Shown: positions 51,172-58,757 of the stretch, one piece after another
How positions within the stretch are numbered: the stretch's first letter is position 1
How the letters are laid out: every line of letters begins with the position of its first letter
Assembly: GCF_040267685.1 (NCBI RefSeq)
Contig: NZ_CP158367.1
Coordinates: 682,001-746,000 of the forward strand
Length of the DNA: 64,000 bases
Reading direction: 5' to 3'
From: Proteinivorax tanatarense
Lineage (GTDB): Bacteria; Bacillota; Proteinivoracia; Proteinivoracales; Proteinivoracaceae
The notes under the pieces: generated by a model
The model's input: only the letters and a program-made list of their open reading frames with translations
What the model was told of the DNA's origin: nothing
Database searches by the model: none
Translations under genes and position numbers: made by a program

Positions 51172-52827
51172 ATGAAAGTTCTAATAATTGGTGGTGTCGC
51201 TGGAGGAGCAAGCGCAGCTGCTAGGCTTCGTAGGGTTACAGAAGAAGCTGAAATAATAATGTTTGAACGAGGAGAGCACATATCATTTGCCAATTGTGGA
51301 CTGCCTTATTATATAGGAGGCACAATAAAGGAGCGGGAAAACCTTTTAGTCCAAACGGTAGAGGGTATGGAGGGAAGGTTTGGAATTGATGTTAGGGTAA
51401 AAAGTGAAATCACAAAAATTGACCGTGAAAATAAAAAGGTCCACGTAAAAAACTGGGGCACTAACGAGCAGTATGAGGAAAGCTACGACTATTTAATTCT
51501 TTCGCCAGGAGCTAAACCTATTAAATTCCCGATACCAGGTATAGATAGCGAACATATTTTTAGCCTTAGAAGCTTAGAGGATACTGATAACATTACTGAC
51601 TTTATTGAGACAGAAAAACCTAAAAAAGCAGTGGTAGTAGGTGGAGGATTTATTGGGCTTGAGATGGTTGAAAACCTTATAGATAGGGGACTAGACACAA
51701 GCCTTGTTGAGGCATTAGATCAGGTTATGCCCCCTTTAGACTATGAGATGGCCGCTATAGTTCAGAAGCATTTAAAAGATAAAGGAGCAAAGCTATATCT
51801 TTCCGACAAGGCAATATCTTTTGAGAACCAAAAGGTTACTTTAGATAGCAAAAAAGAGTTAGATGCAGACCTGGTAATTCTATCAATTGGCGTAGCGCCG
51901 GAATCAGACTTAGCTAAAGAGACAGGTCTAGGCTTAGGTCAACGAGGGACTATAAAAGTTAATAAATATCTCCAAACTTCCGATCCATCAATTTATGCCG
52001 TAGGCGATGTTATTGAGGTAGAAGATTTAGTTAACAAAGCTCCTACCTTTATACCACTAGCAGGCCCAGCAAATAGACAAGGAAGGATTGCAGCAAACAA
52101 TGTGGGTGGCCAAAGAGAAGTTTATCATGGTAGTCAAGGCACTAGTATAGCTAAAGTATTTGACTATACAGTAGCAGCAACGGGAAATAGTGAAAAGGTA
52201 TTAAAAAAGCTGGGGATAAAATACTGCACATCCTACACCAACTCTGCCTCCCATGCTGGGTATTTTCCTGGAGCTATACCCATGACCGTAAAGACCATTT
52301 GTGATTTGAAAGGTAAGGTGCTAGGGGCACAAATAGTCGGTCAAAAAGGTGTGGATAAAAGAATAGACGTTTTTGCAACCTCCATAAAAGCGGGAATGAA
52401 TGTTGAAGATTTAGAACAGCTAGAATTAGCTTACGCTCCACCGTATTCTACTGCTAAAGATCCAGTAAATGTCGCAGGGTTTGTGGCAAACAATACCTTA
52501 AAGGGAGACATGGATATAATACATTGGCATGAGATAGACTCAATACTAGGAAGCGAAAGGTATTTAATCGTTGATGTAAGAACAAAAGAAGAGTTTGATA
52601 ATGGACATATTGAAAACTCTGTTCATATTCCTATAGATGAGTTTAGGGATAACTGGCAGCAAATACCCAAAGATAAAGAAATAATTTTAATTTGCCAAAC
52701 TGGATTGCGCTCGTATTTAGCAGGTAGGCTTCTTGCGCAAAAGGGTTATAGCGATGTAAAGAATCTAAGTGGTGGATATTATATCTATAATATGGCAACA
52801 ACAGAGAAAAAAGAATTAAGTTCATAG
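51172..52827 (+). CDS. CoA-disulfide / NADH-dependent persulfide reductase with rhodanese domain
   Basis: 551 residues. Two-FAD/NAD Rossmann fold (IIGGVAGGASAAARLRR; VVVGGGFIGLEMVENL), redox Cys42 in SFANCGLPYYIGG, FAD motif YAVGDVIEV, dimer domain, then a C-terminal rhodanese domain (about 460-551) with active Cys in LICQTGLRSYLAGR. This fusion reduces CoA disulfide, CoA persulfide or polysulfide with NAD(P)H, protecting against oxidative and sulfur stress or producing sulfide. Single gene with its own terminator. Confidence 0.93.
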   Translation: MKVLIIGGVAGGASAAARLRRVTEEAEIIMFERGEHISFANCGLPYYIGGTIKERENLLVQTVEGMEGRFGIDVRVKSEITKIDRENKKVHVKNWGTNEQYEESYDYLILSPGAKPIKFPIPGIDSEHIFSLRSLEDTDNITDFIETEKPKKAVVVGGGFIGLEMVENLIDRGLDTSLVEALDQVMPPLDYEMAAIVQKHLKDKGAKLYLSDKAISFENQKVTLDSKKELDADLVILSIGVAPESDLAKETGLGLGQRGTIKVNKYLQTSDPSIYAVGDVIEVEDLVNKAPTFIPLAGPANRQGRIAANNVGGQREVYHGSQGTSIAKVFDYTVAATGNSEKVLKKLGIKYCTSYTNSASHAGYFPGAIPMTVKTICDLKGKVLGAQIVGQKGVDKRIDVFATSIKAGMNVEDLEQLELAYAPPYSTAKDPVNVAGFVANNTLKGDMDIIHWHEIDSILGSERYLIVDVRTKEEFDNGHIENSVHIPIDEFRDNWQQIPKDKEIILICQTGLRSYLAGRLLAQKGYSDVKNLSGGYYIYNMATTEKKELSS

Positions 52828-52834
52828 TCAAACA

Positions 52835-52864
52835 AAAGTAGCTGGCAAAAAAGCCAGCTACTTT
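52835..52864 (+). terminator. Terminator after the persulfide reductase
   Basis: Perfect 12-bp stem (52835-52846 with 52853-52864), six-base A loop, short T-run. An extended -10 (TTGCTATAAT, about 52863-52872) for the next gene overlaps its end. Confidence 0.85.
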
Positions 52865-52942
52865 GCTATAATAGTAAAAGACAAGTAAAGTAACTAACTG
52901 CTTAACTTTAAACATGCCAATGTACGTCAAGGAGATGATACT

Positions 52943-54151
52943 ATGAACGCTATCGCTTTTATCGATATTAATAGCAAAGAAACTGAAAACCTTCGTTATA
53001 CTATTGATGGAAAGATGGTTATCGAGCATACCATCGAAAAGCTTATGATGATTAGGGAAATAGAGGCTATTATCTTGCCTTTACATAAATGCAAAGAAAA
53101 TAAAGCATACAAGAAGTTAGAAGAAAAATATCCCATAAAAGTATTTTTTTCTAAGGAACAAAACCTAGGCAAAAAAATGGTGGCAATAGCTAAAGAATTA
53201 AAGCCGCAGCACATTATTAGGGTGATGGGAGATCAGATGTTTTTAGATACAGATGTCTGCTCTGCTATGCTACAAGAAATGACTAACAAAACTTTGGATA
53301 TAAACTATGCCGACCTAAACTGTGGTTTGGCAGCTCAAATTTTTACATATAACGCATTAAAAAAATGCCAAATTGTTTTGGGAAAGTATCATCGCACAAA
53401 CAACTATATAAATGAAAACCCTGACCAGCTGAAAATATCCACCTATACTCACCCCCATCACAACCCTTATTTTCGCTTTCTAGTTAGAAGTGACAGAGAA
53501 AAAAAGATAGCAGAAATACTTTTAAATACTCCTATTGATTTTGATAACTTAGAAAAATATATAGAAATATTATGTGGCGAAACAGGTTTGTACAACAGAG
53601 GTTGGTTTGAAACCTTCAAAAACAAAGAAAGCTTAGATAAAAAAGGCAATCCTTTGCCTTGGTTTACCTACCAAGCTGTAACCTTTTTAGAAGAAAGGGT
53701 AAAAAGCAAATGGGATGTTTTTGAGTATGGGTGTGGCTATAGCTCCCTTTGGTGGTCAAAAAGAGTAAGCTCAGTAACTTCATGTGAGCATAACCTCCAG
53801 TGGCTTAAAATGGTGCAAACAAAAGCAGGAGAGAACGTTAACCTTATATATGCCGACTTTAACAAAGAAAGAAAGTTTGCAGAAAAAATCTTACAAACAA
53901 AGAAGAAATACGATGTAATAGTAATCGACTCCAAAGAAAGAATAAAATGTGCAAAATACGCTTTGAGAAAGCTTAAGCCCAGCGGTGTAATAATCTGGGA
54001 CGACGCAGAAAGAGATCAAGACAAAGAAGGGCAGCAATTTATAGTACAACAAGGCTTCAAAAGAATAACTTTTACAGGAATGAGCCCAATAGTAAAACAC
54101 GAAAACGAAACAGCAATATTTTACCGGGAAGGTAATTGCTTAGGGATCTAA
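52943..54151 (+). CDS. Fusion of a degenerate nucleotidyltransferase-like domain and a SAM methyltransferase
   Basis: 402 residues, AAGGAG before ATG. N-terminal part (about 1-195) follows the SpsF/CMP-sugar cytidylyltransferase plan (FIDINSKETENLRYTIDGKMVIEHTIEKLM; KPQHIIRVMGDQMFLDTDV), but the usual catalytic R..S.RLP.K loop is missing. C-terminal part (about 235-390) is a class I methyltransferase: FEYGCGYSSLWWSK (SAM loop), VTSCEHN, YDVIVIDSKER and SGVIIWDDAER. It may modify a surface glycan or lipid head group, but there is no glycan cluster around it. The function is unassigned. Confidence 0.75.
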   Translation: MNAIAFIDINSKETENLRYTIDGKMVIEHTIEKLMMIREIEAIILPLHKCKENKAYKKLEEKYPIKVFFSKEQNLGKKMVAIAKELKPQHIIRVMGDQMFLDTDVCSAMLQEMTNKTLDINYADLNCGLAAQIFTYNALKKCQIVLGKYHRTNNYINENPDQLKISTYTHPHHNPYFRFLVRSDREKKIAEILLNTPIDFDNLEKYIEILCGETGLYNRGWFETFKNKESLDKKGNPLPWFTYQAVTFLEERVKSKWDVFEYGCGYSSLWWSKRVSSVTSCEHNLQWLKMVQTKAGENVNLIYADFNKERKFAEKILQTKKKYDVIVIDSKERIKCAKYALRKLKPSGVIIWDDAERDQDKEGQQFIVQQGFKRITFTGMSPIVKHENETAIFYREGNCLGI

Positions 54152-54210
54152 ACATAGAGTTAGTTCCAGCAAATAAGTATTTTACTAATAATTAAAATGG
54201 GGTGATAGAA

Positions 54211-54495
54211 ATTAGAATTAAGAAGGCTATGCTCATGGTGGTAATTTTAACATTTTTGATGTTACTAACTGGTTGTATTCCTGGTGATGGGTCATATACG
54301 GAAGAGCAGCCAGCTGGTTTTTTCTGGGGAATATGGCATGGCTGGGTAGCGCCGATTTCTCTTATTATAGGGATATTTAATGAAGGAATTAGGATTTATG
54401 AGCCTATAAATACAGGGAGTGCTTATGATTTTGGGTTCTACTTAGCAGTAGTAGGTGGTTTTGGAGGAATATCCTTTGCCCGCAAGAACAAATGA
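54211..54495 (+). CDS. Small lipoprotein/membrane protein, probable ATT start
   Basis: About 94 residues. A lipoprotein signal (RIKKAMLMVVILTFLMLLTGC, lipobox LTGC) is followed by GFFWGIWHGWVAPISLIIGIF and FGFYLAVVGGFGGISFARKNK, so two more hydrophobic stretches. This 'GFFWGIWHGWIAP' protein type recurs in many bacteria without known role. A GTG at 54202 sits inside the GGGGTGAT ribosome site; the in-frame ATT at 54211 is correctly spaced and begins a normal signal. An ATT at 54217 is also possible. Confidence 0.65.
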   Translation: MRIKKAMLMVVILTFLMLLTGCIPGDGSYTEEQPAGFFWGIWHGWVAPISLIIGIFNEGIRIYEPINTGSAYDFGFYLAVVGGFGGISFARKNK

Positions 54496-54527
54496 TTGTT
54501 AAATTGAGTTTTAAGTAAAGTAGCAAG

Positions 54528-54567
54528 AAAATGGTTCCACTCATTGTTAGATGAGTGGAACCATTTT
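54528..54567. terminator. Bidirectional terminator
   Basis: Perfect 17-bp stem (54528-54544 with 54551-54567) and six-base loop with a T-run on the plus strand, between the convergent lipoprotein and ABC transporter genes. Confidence 0.88.
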
Positions 54568-54594
54568 TAGGTATATTAATATGATATATTTTTA

Positions 54595-56322
54595 TCATGC
54601 TCCCTTTTTCTTGCTAAACTGTACCGCATCAAGGTGGGCGTACACACCTTTTTTGTTTAACAATTCACTGTGGGTACCACTTTCTACAATTTGACCATTA
54701 TCTACAACCAAAATTCTGTCAGCATTTTCAATTGTAGATAATCTATGGGCTATTATAAGAGTTGTTTTATTTTGCATAAGGTTATTAATAGCATTTTGAA
54801 CTAGTTTTTCTGATTCGTTGTCTAAAGAAGATGTTGCTTCATCTAGTAACAAGATTGGAGCATCCTTGATTATAGCCCTAGCAATTGCAACCCTTTGCTT
54901 TTGTCCGCCGGATAAAAATATTCCCCTTTCTCCTACCATTGTGTCATAGCCATTTTCAAGGCTTAAAATAAATTTATGGGCGTTAGCCGCTTTTGCTGCA
55001 GCAAATATTTCGTAATCTGTAGCATCTTTTTTGCCATAAGCGATATTTTCTTTGATAGTACCGTTAAAAAGATATGGCTCTTGAGGTACATAAGCAGTAA
55101 GACTACGTAACCTGTCAATTGAGTAATCATGTGCCATAGTACTAAAATAGGACATGCTTCCATTCTTTGGTTGGTATAGACCAAGTAATAGCTTAAAAAT
55201 GGTACTTTTTCCTCCACCACTAGGACCTACAATAGCCACTGTTTCCCCATCTTCTACTTCAAAAGAGATATTATTTAGTACAGTATCTTTGCAGTTGTAA
55301 GAAAAGTTAACATTTTCAAATGCTATTGCACTATTGATATCTATGGTAGGCATTTTTTCAAAACAAGTAGGTTCTTCTTCTTTGTCTAGCAGTTCATTTA
55401 CCCTATCAAGTCCAGCAAAGGACTCTTGAACCTGGTTTAAAAATTCTCCAAGAGTTTTAAAGAACATTCCAACACCGTTTTGTAATTGATTTATAGCAAG
55501 AACTTGCCCAAAAGAGACATCACCTCTTAATATAAAAACACTAGCTATTGCAATAAAACCTACAAAGGAAAAAATAGTTAAAAAGTTATTTAAGCCTCGC
55601 ATAACAGAGTTTAGCTTTACCCTTTTTAAAGCAGATTCATACACAAATTTATTTTTTTGCTTAAACTTTTTTGCCATTTTAGTCTTTAGATTAAACAACT
55701 TGATTACCGATGAGCCGGCAACTATATCTGAAAGACCTGTGGTTGTGTCACCTAATTTTTTTTGCACCTGATCACTTTTTTCTTTCATAGGTTTAATGAA
55801 TAAGCTTGTAATACCAAGGTTAATAAAATTCCAAGCTAAGAGCCCTAGGGCAAATTTCCAATTCAGTATAAACATATAAATAATGCAACCAATTCCTCCT
55901 ATAAATTTTCCTGTGAGTTGAGTAAAATGTTGGGTTAAAGATTTTTCTAGAACTTGAATATCGTTGGTAACCCTTGAGGTGAAGTCTCCGCTATGGTTAT
56001 TACTATATTCTTGTTGGGGAAGGTTAAGCATTTTATTAAATGCTTTAGCTCTTAATGAGCTTATAGCTTTTATAGATGAGACTTTAATTAGAGTAAAACC
56101 AATTAACACAAGAGCAGTAAGAAGGAGAGTTAGAGCTAAAAGTCCATATATAGCATCTAATACCATACCTGTATCTTGAGCTACTATACCATCAAAAAGT
56201 ACCAAAAAAATAGTAGCTATAAAAATTTGACTTAAGTCTAGAATAGACATACATAAAAGTCCTAGTAAGTATTTAACTCTATTTCCTTTTAATAGGTTAT
56301 AAAAGCCTTTAAAACCACTCAC
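54595..56322 (-). CDS. ABC exporter subunit (permease-ATPase fusion), second of a pair
   Basis: 575 residues from GTG (AAGGAGG upstream). Six-helix exporter membrane domain (about 1-315) then the ATPase: Walker A GPSGGGKST, Q-loop AYVPQEPYLFNG, signature FLSGGQKQRVAIARA, Walker B ILLLDEATSSLD, switch IAHRLST. Its GTG overlaps the upstream gene's stop by one base (TAGTG), so the two are translationally coupled and should form a heterodimer exporting drugs, lipids or peptides. Confidence 0.92.
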   Translation of the reverse strand: MSGFKGFYNLLKGNRVKYLLGLLCMSILDLSQIFIATIFLVLFDGIVAQDTGMVLDAIYGLLALTLLLTALVLIGFTLIKVSSIKAISSLRAKAFNKMLNLPQQEYSNNHSGDFTSRVTNDIQVLEKSLTQHFTQLTGKFIGGIGCIIYMFILNWKFALGLLAWNFINLGITSLFIKPMKEKSDQVQKKLGDTTTGLSDIVAGSSVIKLFNLKTKMAKKFKQKNKFVYESALKRVKLNSVMRGLNNFLTIFSFVGFIAIASVFILRGDVSFGQVLAINQLQNGVGMFFKTLGEFLNQVQESFAGLDRVNELLDKEEEPTCFEKMPTIDINSAIAFENVNFSYNCKDTVLNNISFEVEDGETVAIVGPSGGGKSTIFKLLLGLYQPKNGSMSYFSTMAHDYSIDRLRSLTAYVPQEPYLFNGTIKENIAYGKKDATDYEIFAAAKAANAHKFILSLENGYDTMVGERGIFLSGGQKQRVAIARAIIKDAPILLLDEATSSLDNESEKLVQNAINNLMQNKTTLIIAHRLSTIENADRILVVDNGQIVESGTHSELLNKKGVYAHLDAVQFSKKKGA

Positions 56323-58046: not shown

Positions 58047-58396
58047 TTTTAAACAACTCCTTACTATTTTTAATAATAAAATTAACATTGCATCGAATCC
58101 TAACCAGTTATTTAATATTTAAACTAAAAGCTTAATGTTTTAAAGGTGTTATCTCAATTATAATAAATTATTTAACAATGTCAATAAATTTATTGATATT
58201 TTTAAGCAAATTTATTATAAAATTTAAATTTAGCTTTAAAATAACATTTAAGACATAATCTTATAATTATTAAAAATATTAAAGGATTTTAGATTAAGTT
58301 GTCGAATTATTAAAATATAGAAAATTGAAAACTAATTGGTTGTAAATTCCAGCATCGTGAAAAAGAATAACCTAAGAGGTAAGTTGAAGTGCAACA
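58047..58396. other. AT-rich intergenic stretch between divergent genes
   Basis: About 350 bases, very AT-rich, no gene-like frame. It holds the palindrome at 58181 and must contain promoters for the ABC exporter (minus) and the prepilin (plus). Otherwise I see nothing in it. Confidence 0.5.
58181..58196. promoter_or_regulatory. 16-bp perfect palindrome, candidate operator of the ABC exporter
   Basis: TCAATAAATTTATTGA is fully self-complementary. It lies about 135 bases upstream of the exporter start. The form resembles operators of dimeric winged-helix repressors. No regulator gene adjoins it. Confidence 0.45.
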
Positions 58397-58430
58397 AGGC
58401 GTTTTAAAGTTTTACATTTGCCTAGTAGGG
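58397..58430 (+). promoter_or_regulatory. Hairpin element C before the prepilin gene
   Basis: Same geometry as elements A and B: AGGC (58397-58400) with GCCT (58420-58423), 10-nt loop TAAAGTTTTA (58405-58414), one bulged base (58419). The inner four positions (GTTT/CATT) pair poorly, so this copy is degenerate. The ribosome site AGGGGGGG starts four bases after GCCT, so CCT and AGG are adjacent and an alternative hairpin could not close. Same loop core AGYTTT as A and B. Confidence 0.4.
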
Positions 58431-58439
58431 GGGGATAAG

Positions 58440-58757
58440 GTGAAATTTAATAACTATGATGGGTTTACATTATTGGAAGTTTTAATTGTAATATCCCTTT
58501 TAGGAGTAATATTAGTGCTAACGATACCCAATATAGCTAGTGGTTCCGAACACGCTCACAAAGAACTTTGTAAAAGCTCCATAATTTTATTAGAAGGAGC
58601 AATTGCGCAATATGAAACTGTTAAAAATTCTACAATCGATGATAAAGGTGACATAGCTAACTATTTGTATAAAAATAATTTTCTAGAGTATGAACTAGAA
58701 TGTCCTTTAGGTGGCACATATAAGTTAAGTAAAGGAAAGGTTTCATGTAATCATTAG
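58440..58757 (+). CDS. Type IV prepilin-like protein
   Basis: 105 residues from the GTG at 58440 (AGGGGGGG upstream). The frame opens at 58389, but that part is the hairpin element. Prepilin leader VKFNNYDG cut before F in the class III motif G-FTLLEVLIVISLLGVIL, with the conserved Glu5 and hydrophobic N-terminal helix. The short C-terminal domain has two Cys pairs' worth of spacing (CKSS; CPLGG; C near the end). No pilin assembly ATPase, platform protein or peptidase is in the window, so it must be served by genes elsewhere. Confidence 0.85.
   Translation: MKFNNYDGFTLLEVLIVISLLGVILVLTIPNIASGSEHAHKELCKSSIILLEGAIAQYETVKNSTIDDKGDIANYLYKNNFLEYELECPLGGTYKLSKGKVSCNH

Follow-up and report, generated by a model that had tools for sequence, protein, structure and literature searches.

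Organization of the fusion gene and its flanks

The window analyzed here, a stretch of 64,000 nucleotides of the Proteinivorax tanatarense genome, carries on its forward strand a gene in which a degenerate SpsF-like cytidylyltransferase domain is joined to a methyltransferase domain. The features of this gene and of its 5′ flank are as follows, with the type of evidence in brackets:

52835..52864, + strand: terminator-like perfect inverted repeat of 12 nt with a 6-nt loop, after the upstream gene (sequence)
52929..52934, + strand: AAGGAG ribosome-binding site, 8 nt 5′ of the ATG of the fusion gene (sequence)
52943..54151, + strand: fusion gene encoding 402 aa, with a methyltransferase behind the degenerate SpsF-like domain (ATG start)
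52943..53542, + strand: degenerate cytidylyltransferase (SpsF-like) domain, residues 1-200 (profile, alignment, model)
52964..52990, + strand: site of the lost CTP-binding loop, residues 8-16, three residues deleted, mostly unconserved among the fusions (alignment)
53213..53254, + strand: IIRVMGDQMFLDTD, residues 91-104, including D97, the one active-site Asp (the first) that is kept (alignment)
53486..53488, + strand: Arg182, found in 5/5 fusions where SpsF has the Asp of its T-V-D motif (alignments)
53582..54148, + strand: class I SAM-dependent methyltransferase domain, residues 214-402 (profile, alignment, model)
53720..53746, + strand: FEYGCGYSS, SAM-binding motif I, residues 260-268 (alignment)
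53927..53929, + strand: Asp329, D in 74/74 relatives, candidate metal ligand (alignment; COMT-like pattern)
53999..54004, + strand: Asp353-Asp354, candidate metal ligands (alignment; COMT-like pattern)

The gene upstream of the fusion gene encodes a pyridine-nucleotide-disulfide oxidoreductase/rhodanese, and the 12-nt inverted repeat, with its arms at 52835-52846 and 52853-52864, lies between the two. Since this repeat separates the two genes, the fusion gene probably has its own transcript. The repeat was not among the matches of a consensus scan, and a sigma-70-type scan of 52750-54620 detected no promoter-like site 5′ of the fusion gene; the three sites that it found were all within the coding region and were fewer than in shuffled sequences. 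The close downstream gene, which starts at 54202 and is lipoprotein-like by eye, is not adjacent to the fusion gene in the sister genome. There, a sortase gene and a gene for a 915-aa protein with weak LRR matches (L013:4977-8531) separate the fusion gene from the small lipoprotein-like gene; the window is without these two genes. A perfect 17-nt inverted repeat with a 6-nt loop is located at 54528-54567 of the window between convergent genes, and is probably a bidirectional terminator.

No glycan or sugar gene was found among the window genes that were Pfam-scanned between 43095 and 62092. These neighbors comprise synthases, a CoA-transferase-like enzyme, a peptidase, an oxidoreductase, ABC transporters, a prepilin-like gene, amidohydrolases and a chemotaxis-type protein. 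The preliminary description had stated that the gene stands alone, and this agrees with the upstream inverted repeat, with the separation of the downstream neighbor from it in the sister genome and with the absence of a sugar gene from the scanned neighbors. The neighborhood is partly common to the five genomes of the taxonomic family, with a block of M3 peptidase and ketoacyl-synthase genes on one side of the fusion gene in four of them and the prepilin-like gene on the other side in all five; judged by eye, no glycan locus was recognized around the fusion gene in the other four genomes. The prepilin-like gene, which carries an N-terminal methylation motif, is found at 58389-58757 of the window, and it matched PF07963 (N_methyl) in the two genomes scanned.

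Fold and descent of the N-terminal domain

Profile and structural comparisons support a cytidylyltransferase fold for the N-terminal domain and its descent from a sugar-activating enzyme family. When taken alone, the domain matched PF02348 (CTP_transf_3) with 23.8 bits, above the cut-off of 22.6; the whole protein scored 22.5 bits, just below this cut-off, and 4/5 orthologues matched the same profile at E<=1. When a profile of the five fusions was compared by hhalign with one of five SpsF proteins, the two aligned along residues 1-197 (99.4% probability, E 4e-21). At the sequence level, the fusion profile also matched 6oew, a cytidylyltransferase of Leptospira (E 0.0016). The same enzyme was the best solved match of an AlphaFold2 model of the domain (pLDDT 81.5, pTM 0.83), with a Z of 23.9 and an rmsd of 2.2 over 212 aligned residues (Foldseek E 4e-13, TM 0.87), followed by IspD, TarI, GlmU and KdsB at a Z of approximately 17-19. 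Because the input of this model included 13 SpsF rows from viral contigs, it is the profile comparison that provides independent evidence for the fold. In a full-length model built without SpsF rows, the N-terminal half was of low confidence (pLDDT 31-68 by block). Two alignments of the domain that drew its tail to another Asp were excluded from folding, and an alignment that combined the rows for both domains with the full protein was misaligned and was also excluded.

In two fold searches, the 50 rows shown for each were, by their titles, all nucleotidyltransferases or proteins with such a domain; two Rv0371c rows among them are proteins that we take to be nucleotidyltransferases. A reading of the GDQ motif as that of a GT-A glycosyltransferase was also considered, and would still be conceivable with such row titles. 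An unrelated N-terminal fold was ruled out by the profile comparison, which was made without the structure model, and by the fold search. The claim that the domain keeps the fold signature of SpsF and CMP-sugar synthetases is thus borne out by the motif at residues 91-104 as well as by the hhalign and 6oew matches, and structure prediction, which had been proposed as a check, returned a cytidylyltransferase and not an unrelated fold. The domain has in common with SpsF (PF02348) the fold, the first active-site Asp and the similarity along residues 1-197; however, it lacks the C-terminal tail of SpsF, its CTP loop is deleted and altered, its second Asp is an Arg, and it is fused to a methyltransferase.

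Loss of the cytidylyltransferase active site

The five fusions were compared with 25 SpsF rows from the phylum, of which one is a duplicate and 24 are distinct; 28 SpsF loci were read, and the three left unaligned were two without an SpsF frame and one repeat of another. At the CTP loop (R..S.RLP.K), 25/25 SpsF rows have R, S, R, L and K, and 24/25 have P, whereas the five fusions have no R, S, R, P or K at these positions and are short of three loop columns. This confirms the earlier observation that the loop is not kept, although we take the lost segment to be the nucleotide (CTP) loop rather than a sugar-binding part, as opposed to the term "substrate-binding" that had been applied to it. 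A second loss, which had been overlooked, affects the Asp of the T-V-D motif: this residue is present in 25/25 SpsF rows, and Arg182 takes its place in 5/5 fusions. Arg182 fell on the Asp column again in two other alignments, including the hhalign comparison, and it presumably stands at one of the metal-binding Asp positions of the family. By contrast, 5/5 fusions still have the first active-site Asp, which belongs to the S/G-D-C-P motif and corresponds to D97 (GDQ).

In CMP-Neu5Ac synthetase, the two metal-binding Asp residues are D209 and D211, and alanine at D209 left an activity too low to measure while alanine at D211 lowered the kcat approximately 15,000-fold, as given in one report (PMC2901514). 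Similarly, two conserved active-site Asp residues of KdsB serve a magnesium ion, according to another (PMC3149649). The loss of the CTP loop, together with the replacement of the second active-site Asp by Arg182 in all five fusions, substantiates the description of the domain as catalytically degenerate. The evolution of pseudoenzymes can usefully be studied in dead nucleotidyltransferase domains that have gained another role, and the loss in the fusion is clean, involving the loop and the metal Asp, and is common to five genomes.

Among 12-residue windows of the N domain, conservation was highest in 67-78 and 91-102, the latter including D97, with 7/12 invariant residues each; both windows presumably cover former active-site loops. 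The fusions also have new invariant residues, K71, E72, N74, G76 and K77, in the former R-G-S-E-D-D-V-L segment. The positions conserved in SpsF were not significantly over-conserved in the fusions (11/24 vs 48/172 invariant, p=0.095), and the same was true when the three residues either side of these positions were included (p=0.36). The active site has been dismantled, yet the domain is conserved in all five orthologues and has a low dN/dS in the two close pairs, so that it must serve a purpose other than cytidylyl transfer.

Occurrence and conservation of the fusion

In a first search of 61 genomes, comprising the genome of origin and 60 relatives, nine genomes matched and five contained the full-length fusion, these five being every family member in the set. 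The fusion was thus present in 5/5 genomes of the taxonomic family examined at 45-97% identity, the same-genus genome being at 97% and three genomes of other genera at 45-47%. In a phylum sample, 33/299 genomes matched at E<=0.001; full-length matches were restricted to the five family members, and the remaining ones were partial, with one domain per gene. The dN/dS of the close pair was 0.15 for the N half and 0.22 for the C half, and the N half of this pair is under purifying selection. For the G003-G004 pair, in which synonymous differences are near saturation, the values were 0.16 and 0.07, respectively. The intact orthologues in five genomes and the low dN/dS rule out chance or artefact, and the 402-aa open reading frame is a real gene.

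A second lineage with the fusion was not found among the best 80 of the 178 relatives of the C domain or among the 299 phylum genomes. A scan of genome contigs with the whole fusion as the query gave 157 pattern stretches, none of which was confirmed; the viral contigs (60 loci) and plasmids (5 records) showed matches to the C domain only, and the phages gave no match. The evidence for absence elsewhere is incomplete, since near relatives may be missing from the genome collection. The suggestion to look for the same fusion in other genomes has therefore located it in five family genomes, and in none of the other lineages searched. No published account of the fusion was found in the literature searched, whose coverage leaves out most subscription journals. 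Both parts are known, and what is new is their combination, which was found in one taxonomic family only among the collections searched.

One of the family genomes also contains a 76-aa remnant of the C-terminal end of the fusion (L017, G002:C1:649381-649608), with 60% identity and located approximately 11 kb downstream of the intact copy, which looks like a decayed duplicate.

Nonulosonate genes and other SpsF-type proteins

In B. subtilis, SpsF is a putative cytidylyltransferase, and the transfer of legionaminic acid onto the surface of the forespore depends on it (PMC7439481). Among the five family genomes, a full NeuB was found in G002 only (E 3.7e-95), near that genome's own intact SpsF. 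Weaker NeuB matches, at 38-43 bits, were also above the Pfam NeuB cut-off; in G000, G001 and G003 these matches are in fact DAHP synthases (261-265 bits), in a comparison that covered these three genomes and left out the match of G004 and the second match of G002. Because the full NeuB match is confined to G002, most of the family genomes are unlikely to provide for the synthesis of a CMP-nonulosonate, and an active nonulosonate cytidylyltransferase is an unlikely reading of the fusion. With both NeuB and an intact SpsF, G002 provides a useful contrast within the same family.

In the genome of origin, the only other CTP_transf_3 matches were in frames of 466 aa and 239 aa, which we take to be GlmU- and IspD-like. 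Another genome of the phylum encodes a 594-aa protein (L019, G022:C11) in which, like in the fusion, an SpsF-type domain is fused at its C end to a sugar-pathway protein. However, the SpsF loop of L019 is intact and its partner, presumably SpsG-like, is not a methyltransferase.

The C-terminal methyltransferase domain

The C-terminal domain matched PF13578 (Methyltransf_24) with 31.2 and 32.4 bits (cut-off 26.3), and its model had a pLDDT of 82-98 by block. The fold matches to CbiT (Z 16.1), COMT (15.1) and TrmR (15.1) were tied or nearly so, and the only close solved structure found for this methyltransferase family was 3cvo, of unknown function. The SAM motif E-x-G-x-G (E261, G263, G265) and the acidic residue after beta 2 (E282) are intact; these residues, as well as D329, R333 and D353, are identical in 74/74 aligned relatives and 5/5 fusions. 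The SAM site, FEYGCGYSS at residues 260-268, is therefore normal, as had been stated.

The D353 column is D in 74/74 relatives, and at position 354, where the fusion has D354, the relatives have N in 40 cases and D in 34. We take D329 and D353-D354 to resemble the D...D-N metal ligands of COMT, and because of this resemblance it is possible that the domain is a metal-dependent O-methyltransferase. Two other positions distinguish the fusions: position 330 is S in all of them, compared to G in 69/74 and S in 4/74 relatives, and position 360 is D in all of them, compared to Y in 72/74 relatives. Because these positions differ in all fusions, their substrate may differ from that of the relatives.

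Unfused relatives of the methyltransferase and their glycan link

A scan of genome contigs with the C domain gave 178 confirmed relatives, the best 80 of which come from many phyla, according to the record titles, and have 30-49% identity in their best segment. Among these 80, 65 are 205-253 aa in length and 74 are 170-260 aa, while five are longer and one is masked or broken. The conservation alignment consisted of 74 of the best 80 (30-44% identity to the C domain), six having been dropped for length or masking. This methyltransferase family is thus mostly stand-alone elsewhere, and since the partner has many unfused relatives, the effect of the fused domain is testable by comparing fused and unfused forms. 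The five longer relatives gave no cytidylyltransferase match when scanned, and a simple pattern for the SpsF-like loop occurred in the fetched stretches of 1/80 relatives (L196), where it resembles a Kdo cytidylyltransferase. The C terminus NCLGI was found in 24/80 of the best relatives, and NCLGI or a close variant in 64/80.

In the 74 aligned relatives the methyltransferase is preceded by a leader with a median length of 35 aa, and leaders of 12 aa or more have a mean of 7.0 K/R vs 2.7 D/E. They are mildly hydrophobic (median best 15-residue window, 0.75), and because they are only mildly so, membrane binding by these leaders is uncertain. The degenerate N domain of the fusion occupies the place of this short basic leader. 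The Methyltransf_24 (PF13578) relatives have the SAM motifs and a similar C terminus in common with the C domain, whereas in the fusion the leader is replaced by the pseudo-cytidylyltransferase, positions 330 and 360 differ, and the gene lies outside a glycan locus.

A survey of 79 relatives covered 142 immediate neighbor genes, of which 126 were scanned; the 16 omitted were nearly all from near-duplicate loci, and six further open reading frames, of more than 900 aa, lay outside the scan. As raw counts, the matches were Polysacc_synt in 17 and Polysacc_synt_3 in 15 (two sets that may overlap), Glycos_transf_2 in 11, ABC_tran in 8, FkbM in 5, Wzt_C in 4 and flagellin in 2. The relatives are therefore often located beside flippases and glycosyltransferases. 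On plasmids, one relative (L044) sits between the genes for GDP-mannose dehydratase and GDP-fucose synthase, and another (L046) is near glycosyltransferases. In Halomonas citrativorans, a 1522-aa sugar-related multidomain protein (L176) has the same methyltransferase family at its C terminus, as in the fusion, but its partners are TPR, glycosyltransferase 41 and FkbM domains, with no cytidylyltransferase match. The fusion thus draws attention to a family of methyltransferases with a link to surface glycans.

Proposed function of the fusion protein

In our tentative reading, the protein may be a lineage-specific enzyme that O-methylates a glycan or a glycan precursor, and the pseudo-nucleotidyltransferase is a putative recognition or positioning domain. 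The O-methyltransferase would belong to a family associated with surface glycans, and the pseudo-cytidylyltransferase of SpsF origin to which it is fused would serve substrate recognition or positioning. The C domain would bind SAM and, perhaps with a divalent metal at D329 and D353-D354, would methylate a sugar hydroxyl in a glycan or in an activated glycan precursor. The N domain, standing where the stand-alone relatives have their short basic leader, would no longer be able to make a CMP-sugar; it would most likely recognize or position the substrate, or the nucleotide or phosphate part of the substrate, for the methyltransferase. The preliminary description had proposed such a binding module, and judged from the sequence this is plausible. 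A more specific version, in which the pseudo-cytidylyltransferase would present a nucleotide-activated or phosphorylated sugar in a remodeled cleft to the fused methyltransferase, so that the sugar is methylated before transfer, appears unlikely.

The main rival is a purely structural or targeting role, which also fits the data on the N domain. The domain would then be a structural, dimerizing or targeting module without a small-molecule ligand that merely replaced the basic leader, consistent with the fact that the leader of the relatives is replaced where the N domain ends, with the poor conservation of the CTP-loop region among the fusions and with the lack of significant enrichment of invariance at SpsF-conserved positions. 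This alternative is somewhat less likely, however, as the best conserved windows, 67-78 and 91-102, are those that we take to cover the former active-site loops, and D97 is kept in 5/5 fusions.

The acceptor might also be a non-glycan, for instance a protein such as the prepilin-like neighbor, or a small metabolite. The prepilin-like gene is near the fusion gene in 5/5 genomes, the substitutions at positions 330 and 360 are specific to the fusions, and glycan genes were neither found among the scanned window genes nor recognized by eye in the other four genomes. On the other hand, the relatives of the C domain often adjoin flippases and glycosyltransferases, one of them (L176) is fused to glycosyltransferase and FkbM domains, and the N domain has its origin in a family of sugar-activating enzymes, all of which give this alternative a low probability and argue for the glycan-directed O-methyltransferase proposed above. 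The invariant D97 of the GDQ motif and the new invariant K71, E72, N74, G76 and K77 might suggest that a reduced active site still allows the N domain to catalyze a reaction of the nucleotidyl or phosphoryl type. This is highly improbable, since both the CTP loop and the second Asp are gone in 5/5 fusions and the Asp-to-alanine changes in CMP-Neu5Ac synthetase nearly abolish its activity (PMC2901514).

Observations at other loci

Glycan genes near the flagellin loci, sought by eye and with one Pfam scan, amounted to a single case, in the genome of origin (G000). This is a 747-aa TPR protein with a sugar-transfer-associated ATP-grasp domain (PF14397), encoded near flagellin at L362:11126-13369. 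The flagellar locus of the same genome also contains a 188-bp tandem repeat between flagellar-looking genes, with 8.9 copies and 96% matches (L362:5927-7594). Finally, 83 relatives of the methyltransferase domain were confirmed in viral contigs (L053-L132 being the best 80 of them), some of which carry a long insertion before the V-I-D-G/S motif.
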